Origin: Minisyncoccota bacterium
Lineage (GTDB): Bacteria > Patescibacteriota > Minisyncoccia > Phycocordibacterales > JAGLOS01
Reading direction: 5' to 3'
DNA length: 39,812 bases
NCBI GenBank assembly: GCA_023137615.1
Contig: JAGLOS010000003.1
Span: 1-39,812, forward strand
Shown: in pieces, positions 3,386 through 28,535 of the stretch
Position numbering within the stretch: the stretch's first letter is position 1
How the letters are laid out: the number at the start of each line of letters is the position of its first letter
Notes under the pieces: generated by a model
Told to the model about the DNA's origin: nothing
The model's database searches: none
Seen by the model: only the letters and a program-made list of their open reading frames with translations
Program-made: the position numbers and the translations under genes

Positions 3386-5860
3386 TCAAGTAAGATCCTC
3401 CGGCAAAAGAGTAAATTTGCTTCCTTCTTTGATATCTCCACGAATAAGTTTCTCTGCGATCACTTGTTCCAGATTTTCTTGTATATAACGATTCATTGGT
3501 CGCGCTCCAAAAACAGGATCAACTCCCTGCTGTGCCACATACTCGACCATCTCAGACGTGATTTCCATATCAAGACCTCGATTGCGCAAACGCAGACGCA
3601 GCTTCTCCAACATGATCCCTGATATTTTCCTAATATGTTCCAACTCAAGAGGATGAAACAATACTACCGCATCAAAACGATTCAAAAACTCCGGTTTGAA
3701 AATGCGTTCTTTGATAATATGATCCACAATCTCTTTTTGAATATTTTTTGTATCAACCTCTTGTTGCATTTTTTCAAATATCAAATTACTTCCCGCATTT
3801 GATGTTGCAATGAAAATGACATTTCGTGCATTCACACGCTTACCCTTAACATCGGAAAAGAACCCTTCGTCAAGTATCTGCAAGAAAAGATCGTGTACCT
3901 GCGTAGCGCTTTTCTCAAACTCATCAAGAAGCACCACGCCATATGAATGTTCCCGCAAGGTTCGTGTCAAAACACCTATTTGTCCACCATCAAACGAACC
4001 AATGAGACGCGCAACCGCGTCACCTCCGGCAAATTCCGACATATCAAGTCGTGTCATATTCTTCTCATCTCCAAAGAAAAGTGCCGCAAGGGCTTTTGCC
4101 GTCTCGGTCTTCCCCACTCCCGTAGGACCGACAAACAAAAATGATCCTATTGGTCGACGAGTGTTGCGCACACCGGCTCTCGAGCGGCGCATGGCATTAC
4201 TCACTACAACGATCGCCTCATCTTGTCCAATAACACGCTTGTGCAGCAGATCTTCAACGTTAAGCAATGTTTCTCTTTCCGCTTCTTTGATCTGACCAAG
4301 TGGCACTCCCGTCTTTTTCTCGACTATATCAAGAATATCCTGCTTCTCGACGAGAATTTTATGTTTTCTGATAACATGCGCCGGTAATTCCACAAGAATA
4401 TCGATAGCCTTATCGGGCATAACAGGATCAGAAAAATGATCCATTACCGCGCGAATCACCGTTTTGAGAGAATTATAGGTGAACAAAACACCACTATGCT
4501 TTTCGAGTTCTTCCGCAACATTTTGTAGTACCTCTACCATTTCTTCGTCGCCGGGATGCTCAACAAGTATGTGTTCAAATCTCTGTTTGATCGTTGGATC
4601 TTGTTCCAACAAATGATGATAGTTATCTTTGTTCGAAAGAGCAACGATCTGGATCCCCGCGGACGCAAAATACGGATCCATCAAACGTATAACATCAGTT
4701 CCCAAATACTGTGCACTCAACACAAAAGCCGACAGATCTCTAAAAATAAAAAGAATATTTCCGGCGGCAACCGCATCGTTGAGTATTTTTATAAATTGAA
4801 TTTCAAGATCATTCTTGCTTTGTGATTGTGAGACCAAAAACTCACCGTCAAAAAGCATGGGGCGTTTTCTCTCCAGAGCGGGCGGCACTTTTCCGGAATG
4901 GATATCTCGGGCAAATGAGTAGACAACGTCCATCTTGCCTTCTCCCGGTTCGCCGACAAGCAACACATTTGATTCTCGCGCGCACGACAAAAGATCCTTG
5001 AGTTGTTGAAGGTACTCGGCTCCTTTCTCGGATAGTGCGTTGAGAGACGCACCCCCTTCGTGTCCACTCAATTCATGCGCATAGCGGCGCAGTATATATG
5101 CTTGTCCGTACGACCAGTCAGAACCGATCCCTTCTATTTTTTCGAGATTGGCAGCAGTCCACCAACGCCTCTTTTCTTTTGTCTTTTCGTTTATCTTTAC
5201 AACCCAACTTGTCGCACCAAAGAAATCTTCTTTTTGAGTTCCTTTAGAGAACAAAAAATCAGCAAAAGTGGGATCATTTTGAAAAATATATTGTGCCAGA
5301 TCAGTGAGTGCAAAAACCTCTCCATCACGCATCTGCGGGTGTGAATAACGAACAACATGTTCTCTTGTATTCAAATGTGTCTCAACAATATCATCGTACA
5401 GACCGCTACGGTGCAATATCTCCCTGCCGATATCTGAGAGACAAAATGCCGCGGTAATATCTCTGTCTTGCACATTTAAAAGTATACGCAACACATGAAA
5501 ACTGAACATGTCTTCCGGTATACGATCTTTTCCATTTACCGTCGCGTCCTCTTTTTCTTTAAAATAATAGGAACAAAAGAATGCCTCAATAGAATATACA
5601 CATATCCAAAAAGCGAAAGAAAGTAATACAAGACCAAATATCTTTGGCAGTATCATATCAAACACCAACTCAATGTTACCATTGAGCAAATGAAATTGGT
5701 TTATAACCATAATCACAATGATCACTGTCAAAAAAGACAAAAGGAACGCGACTGTTATTTTATAGATACGTCTTCGAAAACTCGAAGATAGCACCTCCTC
5801 AAGAAGCACGATCGGATACAAGTAACTTTTTTTTAATTGATATCGGCTTTTTTCTTCCAT
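3386..5860 (-). CDS. Membrane-anchored ClpB/ClpC-type double AAA+ ATPase
   Basis: Two N-terminal hydrophobic segments; D2 Walker A GPTGVGKTETAKAL, Walker B VVLLDEFEKS, IATSNAGSNLI, FKPEFLNRFDAVVLFHPL. D1 Walker motifs degenerate (see findings). Confidence 0.9.
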   Translation of the reverse strand: MEEKSRYQLKKSYLYPIVLLEEVLSSSFRRRIYKITVAFLLSFLTVIIVIMVINQFHLLNGNIELVFDMILPKIFGLVLLSFAFWICVYSIEAFFCSYYFKEKEDATVNGKDRIPEDMFSFHVLRILLNVQDRDITAAFCLSDIGREILHRSGLYDDIVETHLNTREHVVRYSHPQMRDGEVFALTDLAQYIFQNDPTFADFLFSKGTQKEDFFGATSWVVKINEKTKEKRRWWTAANLEKIEGIGSDWSYGQAYILRRYAHELSGHEGGASLNALSEKGAEYLQQLKDLLSCARESNVLLVGEPGEGKMDVVYSFARDIHSGKVPPALERKRPMLFDGEFLVSQSQSKNDLEIQFIKILNDAVAAGNILFIFRDLSAFVLSAQYLGTDVIRLMDPYFASAGIQIVALSNKDNYHHLLEQDPTIKQRFEHILVEHPGDEEMVEVLQNVAEELEKHSGVLFTYNSLKTVIRAVMDHFSDPVMPDKAIDILVELPAHVIRKHKILVEKQDILDIVEKKTGVPLGQIKEAERETLLNVEDLLHKRVIGQDEAIVVVSNAMRRSRAGVRNTRRPIGSFLFVGPTGVGKTETAKALAALFFGDEKNMTRLDMSEFAGGDAVARLIGSFDGGQIGVLTRTLREHSYGVVLLDEFEKSATQVHDLFLQILDEGFFSDVKGKRVNARNVIFIATSNAGSNLIFEKMQQEVDTKNIQKEIVDHIIKERIFKPEFLNRFDAVVLFHPLELEHIRKISGIMLEKLRLRLRNRGLDMEITSEMVEYVAQQGVDPVFGARPMNRYIQENLEQVIAEKLIRGDIKEGSKFTLLPEDLT

Positions 5861-25719: not shown

Positions 25720-26496
25720 CTATTTAGAATCATCTGCCAACTTTCTTTCTTGGATAGCATTTTGATGCTTTGCACTCCAAGCATATAATGCGATCGCCGC
25801 AGATGCCGCTGCATTGAGTGACTCACATTTTTGATCGATCGGTATGGAAAGCATAATGTCACAAAGATCACGTGTCTTTTCGCGCACACCCTTTGCCTCA
25901 TTACCAAGAACAAACACAGTCGGAGCATCAAATTTTTCATCAGTTACTTTTGTCTCAGCTTCACCTGCAAGTCCATACACCCAAAAACCGCGTTTTTTGA
26001 GGTCTCGAATCGTATCATTGATATTTCCAATAGTTACCAATGGAATTCTAAACGCCATCCCCGCAGAAACTTTTACAACAGCCCCTGTCGCTTGACCTTG
26101 ATTGTGTGACGGCATAAGTACGCCCGACACCCCAAAAGCAGCCGCAGAGCGTATCACCGCACCGATATTTTGCGGATCCTGCAATTCACCCAAGATCACC
26201 AATGACGTGTCTTCCTTTATTTCAAGATCCTTGATAAATTCTTTGTATGGACGCATCAAGCCCTCATTTGCAACAAGCGCCACCACACCTTGATGAGTGG
26301 CTTCACGCAGGTCTTTTCCCAAAGTGGCATCTCCTGAGAGTTTTGATGTCGGCACACCCGTTTCCTTAATAAGAGTCAAAAGCTCCTCATCGTCAATATT
26401 CGACGAAAGAAACACTTTCTTGATCGACTGCGGCGAATGCGCCAACGCCTCGATCAGCGCGTGTTTTCCATAGATATATGTCTTCCTCTCTTTCAT
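25720..26496 (-). CDS. rlmB: TrmH/SpoU-family rRNA 2'-O-methyltransferase (RlmB-like)
   Basis: IYGKHALIEALAH, LGELQDPQNIGAVIRSAAAFGVSGVLMP, FVLGNEAKGVREKTRDLCD, IPIDQKCESLNAAASAAIALYAW. Confidence 0.9.
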   Translation of the reverse strand: MKERKTYIYGKHALIEALAHSPQSIKKVFLSSNIDDEELLTLIKETGVPTSKLSGDATLGKDLREATHQGVVALVANEGLMRPYKEFIKDLEIKEDTSLVILGELQDPQNIGAVIRSAAAFGVSGVLMPSHNQGQATGAVVKVSAGMAFRIPLVTIGNINDTIRDLKKRGFWVYGLAGEAETKVTDEKFDAPTVFVLGNEAKGVREKTRDLCDIMLSIPIDQKCESLNAAASAAIALYAWSAKHQNAIQERKLADDSK

Positions 26497-26544
26497 GGTA
26501 TCAATTATACTATATCAGATAGAATATATTACAATACATAAAAA

Positions 26545-26582
26545 GAATTAGGTAATTAAAATATGTTTTAATTACCTAATTC
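26545..26582. terminator. 17-bp perfect inverted repeat, possible terminator
   Basis: GAATTAGGTAATTAAAA-TATG-TTTTAATTACCTAATTC. Confidence 0.5.
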
Positions 26583-26621
26583 TTTCAGCAGCAGCCATAG
26601 GCGTAAGATGAAATTTCTCTT

Positions 26622-26776
26622 TGTGACTCTACGGGGAGTCGGGGTCAAGTTTCTAAGTATTTTCTTCACTCTTTCAGAGCTCAAAAATACTAAGAACTTC
26701 CTCCCCGGACTCGGCTACAGTTCTCCTTTCGGTCGAACTGGCTTCGCCGCCTCCGTCTTTCGACTCCCCGTAGAGT
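26622..26776. repeat. tRNA-Glu-derived structured element with 16-bp terminal inverted repeat
   Basis: ACTCTACGGGGAGTCG (26626-26641) inverted at 26761-26776; 18-bp direct repeat TGTGACTCTACGGGGAGT shared with the tRNA 3' end (26622-26639 and 26823-26840). Confidence 0.7.
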
Positions 26777-26781
26777 TCTCA

Positions 26782-26822
26782 GGCACACGAAAAAATCCAT
26801 CTTTCAGATGGATTTTTGTGCC
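26782..26822 (-). terminator. Terminator hairpin downstream of tRNA-Glu
   Basis: GGCAC-acga-AAAAATCCATC-TTTCA-GATGGATTTTT-GTGCC. Confidence 0.75.
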
Positions 26823-26824
26823 TG

Positions 26825-26896
26825 TGACTCTACGGGGAGTTGAACCCCGATTGCCGGCTTGAGAAGCCGATGTCCTAACCATTAGACGATAGAGCC
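26825..26896 (-). tRNA. tRNA-Glu (anticodon CTC), CCA not encoded
   Basis: Cloverleaf folds by eye: GGCTCTA/TAGAGTC acceptor, GTCT-AATGGTTA-GGAC, TCGGC-TTCTCAA-GCCGG, CGGGG-TTCAACT-CCCCG, discriminator A. Confidence 0.93.
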
Positions 26897-26897
26897 G

Positions 26898-26939
26898 AAA
26901 TTAGTTTGTAGTTTGTAGTTTGTAGTTTGTAGTTACTAG
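26898..26939. repeat. Heptad tandem array next to the tRNA-Glu 5' end
   Basis: AAATTAG (TTTGTAG)x4 TTACTAG. Confidence 0.9.
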
Positions 26940-26986
26940 TAAAACAGAATACCAGATTATTTCAAAAACGTCTACACGATCACCTG

Positions 26987-27234
26987 TAACCACTCACACT
27001 TAACATCAATAATCTGTAAAAAATAAGTCATTACAACTTTGTTCTAATCATAATTCAATGGCTATGGGTATAGCCATTGAATTGTCCGACCTCCTTCATA
27101 ACAACGGCAAAGCCGTCTTTGCGAGCGTTTAGCGTGGCAATCCAGAGTCACAACCACAATACTCTAGACTGCCACGTCACTCCACTGCGTTCCGCTCCTC
27201 GCAGAGACGGGTGGTTTTAGGTGTGAGTGGTTAT
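26987..27234. mobile_element. MITE-like non-autonomous element with TIR and 9-bp target site duplication
   Basis: TAACCACTCACAC (26987-26999) / GTGTGAGTGGTTA (27221-27233); direct GATCACCTG at 26978-26986 and 27235-27243; internal 14-bp hairpin AATTCAATGGCTAT-GGGT-ATAGCCATTGAATT (27052-27083). Confidence 0.75.
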
Positions 27235-27236
27235 GA

Positions 27237-28535
27237 TCACCTGCTCTGCCACTCTTTTTCCTGTCGCACCAATACTTGTTTTTTGTTCTCCGGATGTGCC
27301 ATTATCTCTTCCACGGCGTACTCCATGCGCATACCTTGTGATCCTTTTATAAATATAACATCTTCTTCTTTAATAATTCTTTCAGCATGTTTCCCCGCTT
27401 CTTTAGAATCGGCAAATTCCACGATATTCTTTTCTGACATGCCGCCGATCAACGCACCGTCCACCACAGATTGCGCACGCGGTCCAACTACGAACAAAAG
27501 GTCACACATTTTACCAACCATTACACCCACCTCTTTATGTGCCTCTATGGTAAATTTTCCAAGTTCGAGCATATCCCCCAAAATAGCGATCTTTTTACCT
27601 TTTATATTAAGTTCCCCGACAGTTTCAAGCCCCGCCAAGACAGCGACAGGAGAGGCGTTATATGTATCATCTATGATGATACATCCTTTCAAGCCCTCAA
27701 CAAGACGCAATCGCCCGGGTGGTGGCGTATAGCTTGAAAGCGACTCAAGAATGTCCTTTGTGTCCAACTTGAAATATCTCCCAACAGCGAGCGCGCACAG
27801 GGCAACATAGACATGATGTCTTCCAAAAACATTTTTCATGTGTATTGTTATTTTCTTTCTCCCATCTTTGAGTTCAAAAGAAAGACCTATCGGAACACCA
27901 TCATTGTATGAGATCTGCACGTTATCCGCTCGAATATCTGTATTTTTTTCAAATCCGTATGTAATATATTCATGATCGGTAGTGTCTTTTAGAACACGCA
28001 CTTTTTCGTCATCCCCGTTGAGAATGAGAAGTCCGTCTTTTTTTAGTGAATTTATAAGAAATGCCTTTTCCCGAACAAGATGTTCAACGGAATCAAAAAA
28101 TTCAACATGTGTCGGCACATCCCCAAATCGTGTGATGACCACAATATCAGCCACAAGCCATTTTGAAACATTTTCAACATCTCCCGGTCTTTCGGCACCA
28201 ACCTCAAGGATCAACAATTCCGGATAATGATGTCTGAATATCAAAAGAGAAACACCTTTTATAATATTCTTTAACCATAAAAAAGGGTTATTCCATCCTG
28301 TCGGACAATTCAAAATGGTCAGAAGCACATTGAATTCACCACTAAAACTCTTTTTGCTCTTCCGTACAAAAAAAGATTTGTTCAAAACAGTATAAAGAGC
28401 GTCTTCGGTAGATGTTTTTCCCACGCTTCCTGTGATCGCGATAACGCGCGGGTGATATTTTTTCAAAACAAGTTTTGCCTCGTATATAAGTATCGCAACG
28501 ACGATCTTCTTGAACATGACTTTCATAAAAAACAT
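27237..28535 (-). CDS. murF: UDP-N-acetylmuramoyl-tripeptide--D-alanyl-D-alanine ligase (MurF-like)
   Basis: VIAITGSVGKTSTEDALY, EVGAERPGDVENVSKWLVADI, LNGDDEKV, IIIDDTYNASPVAVLAGLE, IAILGDMLELG. Confidence 0.93.
   Translation of the reverse strand: MFFMKVMFKKIVVAILIYEAKLVLKKYHPRVIAITGSVGKTSTEDALYTVLNKSFFVRKSKKSFSGEFNVLLTILNCPTGWNNPFLWLKNIIKGVSLLIFRHHYPELLILEVGAERPGDVENVSKWLVADIVVITRFGDVPTHVEFFDSVEHLVREKAFLINSLKKDGLLILNGDDEKVRVLKDTTDHEYITYGFEKNTDIRADNVQISYNDGVPIGLSFELKDGRKKITIHMKNVFGRHHVYVALCALAVGRYFKLDTKDILESLSSYTPPPGRLRLVEGLKGCIIIDDTYNASPVAVLAGLETVGELNIKGKKIAILGDMLELGKFTIEAHKEVGVMVGKMCDLLFVVGPRAQSVVDGALIGGMSEKNIVEFADSKEAGKHAERIIKEEDVIFIKGSQGMRMEYAVEEIMAHPENKKQVLVRQEKEWQSR

Follow-up and report, generated by a model that had tools for sequence, protein, structure and literature searches.

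The genomes of Patescibacteria are very small and hold little spare DNA. In one of them (hereafter G000, a draft assembly that is 95.7% complete), the 3′ tail of a tRNA-Glu gene is repeated behind the gene, once in direct and once in inverted orientation. What kind of sequence carries two further copies of its neighbour's end? The window analysed here is the whole stretch of 39,812 nucleotides of contig JAGLOS010000003.1 that contains this locus. A sequence-only reading of the window had described a tRNA-Glu-derived element and offered three explanations: a structured RNA, an att-like remnant of integration or a tRNA-derived MITE. Here we report that the element belongs to a family of structurally conserved units found at the 3′ ends of tRNA and tmRNA genes. 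Our analysis suggests that these units are probably non-autonomous, gene-less elements that fold as single-stranded DNA, depend on a mobiliser acting in trans and have an inverted arm that is matched to the local tRNA by copying.

Architecture of the window element

The sequence TGTGACTCTACGGGGAGT occurs at positions 26622–26639 and 26823–26840, 201 bp apart, with an inverted copy at 26761–26776, as originally reported. Read along the tRNA strand, the tRNA-Glu tail (X1) is followed by a hairpin (t–t′), the inverted tail copy (X′), a two-armed core, the direct tail copy (X2) and a further terminator (Table 1). The unit extends beyond the element first described and includes the t–t′ hairpin, whose position, 50–60 bp from the tRNA, is common to most copies of the family. 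X2 in the window reads as the displaced original 3′ end of the tRNA, in which case an ordinary terminator would be expected behind it; the terminator found there is probably the original one of the tRNA-Glu gene, and many other family copies have their own terminators behind X2. Upstream of the tRNA-Glu gene, at 26900–26935, lies a short tandem repeat of agtttgt.

Table 1 Features of the tRNA-Glu locus in the window
Feature	Positions	Strand	Basis
tRNA-Glu(CTC), target gene	26824–26896	minus	ARAGORN; Rfam RF00005, 62.3 bits
X1, 3′ tail of tRNA-Glu(CTC)	26824–26842	minus	ARAGORN placement of tRNA
t–t′, terminator-like hairpin between tRNA and X′	26780–26823	minus	sequence
X′, inverted tRNA-Glu tail copy, 5′ arm of basal helix	26761–26776	minus	sequence, fold
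Core arm P2, CGGA...TCCG, GGA/GA internal loop, variable tip	26706–26755	minus	fold, covariation
Core arm P3, AGTTCTTA...TTAGAAACT motif	26641–26706	minus	fold; covariation in 11/15 helix pairs
X2, direct tRNA tail copy, 3′ arm of basal helix	26622–26641	minus	sequence
Terminator behind X2	26541–26586	minus	sequence

A conserved three-way junction

On the minus strand, the X′–core–X2 segment is predicted to form a three-way junction of −77.6 kcal/mol (z = −8.5; 0/200 shuffles as stable), in which a basal helix of 15–16 bp carries both arms, and the terminal helix and two arms proposed earlier are thus borne out. The plus-strand fold of the element has a z of −7.3. Over ten homologous copies, from which we built the covariance model R1, 96% of the pair cells are in standard pairing, compared with 36–46% in slid controls, and 22 of the 34 pairs show double-sided changes; none of 500 shuffles attains any pairing or covariation measure of this alignment. 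Given this covariation and the difference between 96% pairing and the roughly 40% of the slid controls, the three-way junction is not a product of chance.

A family behind tRNA and tmRNA genes

R1 finds 18 copies in the window genome (E ≤ 1e-5) and matches in 199/297 genomes of the order, with a maximum of 32 in one genome. A single-copy element with neither covariation nor homologues, the outcome that the sequence-only reading had named as speaking against it, is clearly not what we observe. A DNA search detected homologous cores in 11/60 genomes of the order, nearly all adjoining tRNAs of different types. Elsewhere in Patescibacteria, matches are rare. In a whole-phylum sample, 30/380 genomes match, some of them from other classes, and the copies in other orders and classes keep the layout, with cores down to about 87 nt. 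Named genomes in which an exact core pattern occurs belong almost exclusively to Paceibacterota, including Kaiser-, Nomura-, Taylor-, Zambryski-, Lloyd- and Vogelbacteria. One element lies on a short contig labelled Parachlamydiales (L119), probably a binning error. The elements are gene-less, and their median size, from tRNA end to element end, is about 190 bp. Searches of phage and plasmid sequences and of IMG/VR returned no match to the family, and we found no description of such elements in the open-access literature; the family is apparently undescribed so far.

Among 224 distinct copies, 188 lie on the same strand as a tRNA or tmRNA gene and at most 450 bp behind it. Their targets carry 38 labels, of which one is tmRNA and 37 are anticodon types; copies are not confined to tRNA-Glu, and nearly all tRNA types are used. 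The distance between tRNA and element peaks at 50–60 bp, with a second, tandem position near 220–260 bp, and no opposite-strand copy was present among the first set of 128. For many of the copies with no assigned tRNA, the surroundings are a contig end, masked sequence or a broken or interrupted tRNA; others have no tRNA visible nearby. Of the 80 copies with a full-length X2, 53 have an X2 that stops no more than 1 base from the tRNA end. This precision partly accords with the suggested att-like remnant, but the element recurs as a whole unit, which a leftover would not. In the window genome, a model-free comparison revealed an inverted copy at equal distance behind many tRNAs, and over half of its tRNA genes seem to bear a unit or a remnant of one. 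The same-genus genome G001 has no R1 copies, and 0/26 of its tRNAs have an element behind them; this absence could reflect a loss of copies. Within genomes, tRNAs with and without an element do not differ in encoded CCA.

Three loci of the window genome, at tRNA-Thr(tgt), tRNA-Ser(gga) and tRNA-His (L251, L260 and L256, respectively), have a second, unrelated core type, ACTGGAAAGGGGTCGGG..., within the same layout of X1, X′, core and X2; at the tRNA-Ser(gga) locus, the hairpin and X′ are repeated exactly after this core. In locus L130 (at about 3400–3600 of that locus), what looks by eye like a group I-like intron seems to interrupt the tRNA upstream of the element.

Shared cores and target-matched arms

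The nearest relative of a core lies in the same genome in 67/97 cases (17 in shuffled data), and 65 of these 67 relatives sit at another tRNA. In genome G155, for example, near-identical cores stand at Asn, Pro and Arg tRNAs, and their hairpins and X′ arms differ. X′ follows its location: at T-stem position 4, its agreement is 0.89 with its own tRNA and 0.30 with other tRNAs. The clustering of cores within genomes could also be explained by gene conversion among fixed copies. Outside T-arm positions 1–9, X′ and X2 depart from X1 independently, and their pairing beyond these positions is therefore not selected. Within positions 1–9, 7/9 double deviations of X′ and X2 agree with each other, which hints slightly that pairing is under selection there.

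A mini-hairpin (8-bp stem, CTGC or CCGC loop, flanks AG...CG) often lies inside X′, where it splits the acceptor and T-arm parts, for example at L002, L006, L017 and L054; it also joins tandem copies. Elsewhere, a tRNA-Ala is broken exactly in its T-loop, with an element attached (L116), and the same contig holds a core of this type followed by the missing tRNA-Ala tail (L098), possibly a rearrangement that marks the crossover point.

Single-stranded DNA as the probable functional form

Structured RNAs accept G–U pairs and do not accept A–C pairs. The tRNA acceptor stems at the same loci, used as a control, contain 66 GT and 2 AC pairs. In model-free counts with the register chosen on Watson–Crick pairs, the P3 stem contains 321 Watson–Crick pairs, 1 GT and 0 AC, and P2 contains 8 GT and 9 AC. 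In P1, as in P2, the two exceptions are near parity. The loops differ between strands. Perfect-stem C-GNA-G triloops number 54 in 29 kb of elements and 40–44 in 550 kb outside them, that is, 1.85 versus 0.07–0.08 per kb (about 25-fold), and the complementary strand of the elements has only 2 (0.07 per kb), so the enrichment is confined to the tRNA strand. GNRA tetraloops are not enriched in the elements over outside sequence. As DNA, mini-hairpins with GNA loops have extraordinary stability (PMC4686876). The near-equal GT and AC exceptions, together with GNA triloops on one strand, favour a folded single strand of DNA, and the functional form, judged from sequence patterns, is most likely the tRNA-sense strand in that state.

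These observations bear on the reading of the elements as structured non-coding RNAs, produced from the tRNA strand or by convergent transcription and then processed in the manner of tRNA-like RNAs. The structure that the sequence-only reading ascribed to an RNA is real and conserved, and the strong fold, the covariation and the constant proximity to tRNA genes would all suit an RNA, as would the excess of GT over AC (204 to 71) in the R1 alignment; this mild RNA-like lean is partly expected, because the model rewards G–U. However, near parity in P1 and P2, the almost complete lack of GT in P3 and the DNA-type triloops point to DNA. In addition, a hairpin terminator stands between tRNA and core, no promoter-like site was found in 26500–27100 of the window, and a genome of the same genus does without any copies. 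In an Rfam 15 search of 26400–27250, the tRNA alone passed the gathering score and the element had no match. We therefore regard an RNA function as unlikely.

Proposed mechanism of insertion

The favoured reading, of non-autonomous elements mobilised in trans, can be put as a series of steps. The tRNA-sense strand would fold once it becomes single-stranded, and the X′:X2 helix would recreate a short double-stranded T-arm site. This rebuilt site may be recognised by a recombinase or transposase supplied in trans, the element having no enzyme of its own. Insertion would duplicate the tRNA 3′ end as X1 and X2, which would leave the tRNA intact. X′ would later be brought to match the local tRNA by hairpin-templated copying of X1 of the quasipalindrome type, a form of correction known in Escherichia coli (PMC7202029). 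We saw no insertion event: no orthologous pair of empty and filled sites could be aligned, and the conserved neighbours found in the empty-site comparison with G001 were mostly tRNA self-matches. That the family forms a novel class of single-stranded DNA mobile element, which targets tRNA 3′ ends, acquires an inverted copy of the target during or after each insertion so that its folded end comes to reproduce the new site, and is moved by an enzyme, is a more tentative proposal, which we consider possible rather than probable.

Alternatively, host replication could spread and shape the units by template switching alone, with no dedicated enzyme: the polymerase would snap back at the terminator hairpin, copy the tRNA tail as X′, jump to a core elsewhere via the shared T-loop TCGA and return to the tRNA. 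Perfect X1–t–t′–X′ palindromes (for example, at tRNA-Gly in L031 and tRNA-Arg in G028) are what such copying would leave, tandem copies occur, and in L206 an ordinary terminator in the X2 flank recurs, with an extended arm, in the X1 flank. The idea that both flanks retain the original terminator does not hold generally: the flanks are mostly unlike, with 5/94 loci above the 99th percentile of controls. The conserved core structure and the strand-specific loops moreover suggest recognition by a protein. Template switching alone thus seems improbable to us, even though the mobiliser families that we searched for were not detected in some element-rich genomes.

Those families gave the following picture. 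The tyrosine recombinase family (PF00589) has one gene in G000 and is present in 278/297 genomes, and it was not detected in the complete genome G106, which has 19 copies. Reverse transcriptase (PF00078) had no match in G000. Y1_Tnp (PF01797) had no match in G000 and is present in 182/297 genomes of the order. For none of the three is the co-occurrence with the elements convincing. At tRNA-Glu(ttc) (L255) and, in G001, at tRNA-Ser(tga) (L153), a gene that by eye resembles a large serine recombinase ends beside the tRNA, and it is a candidate mobiliser.

The least probable reading, which seems to us very unlikely, is that of a REP-like element mobilised by a Y1 transposase (RAYT) of the IS200/IS605 type: the hairpins of single-stranded DNA and a weak association between Y1_Tnp and the elements (odds ratio 1.9, p 0.012, with no phylogenetic correction) are offset by a window genome with 18 copies and no detected Y1_Tnp, a copy-free G001 with three, and a GTAG tag that is not conserved (29/220 upstream stretches, about 19 expected).

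If the preferred reading of mobile elements is correct, the target site of the family is one that adapts itself. Site-specific insertion on such a principle would be new and might serve as a tool for directing insertions to tRNA genes; mobility would also account for the tRNA-tail repeats behind the tRNA genes of Patescibacteria.

Comparison with known systems

MITEs, the closest of the three explanations first offered, are likewise small, gene-less and multi-copy. Of the MITE hallmarks, family-wide terminal inverted repeats and a target duplication, the elements show a direct repeat of the tRNA end and an inverted arm that differs with each target. The mobile-looking character of the family agrees with that proposal, but only the arms are tRNA-derived; no pair of terminal inverted repeats seems to be common to the family, and the arms are copies of the local target. 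Integrative elements and casposons at tRNA 3′ ends also leave a direct repeat of the tRNA end and an intact tRNA. Unlike them, the elements described here measure about 190 bp, have no integrase gene, contain an internal inverted tRNA copy and occupy many different tRNAs within one genome.

Integron attC sites resemble the family in that the site is a folded single strand, units stand in tandem and insertion takes place at a fixed leading site. However, the R-box pair GTTRRRY/RYYYAAC is present in 0/224 elements on either strand, the site is a tRNA T-arm and there is no cargo gene. REP and REPIN sequences with their RAYT are short, gene-less, structured DNA repeats with DNA hairpins, whereas our family has a three-way junction and a fixed place at tRNA 3′ ends, in addition to the differences in tag and transposase noted above. 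The family works most like attC (PMC2727003) or REP (PMC3733652), although it fails the defining features of both, and its self-adapting arm is possibly a new principle among non-autonomous structured DNA elements.
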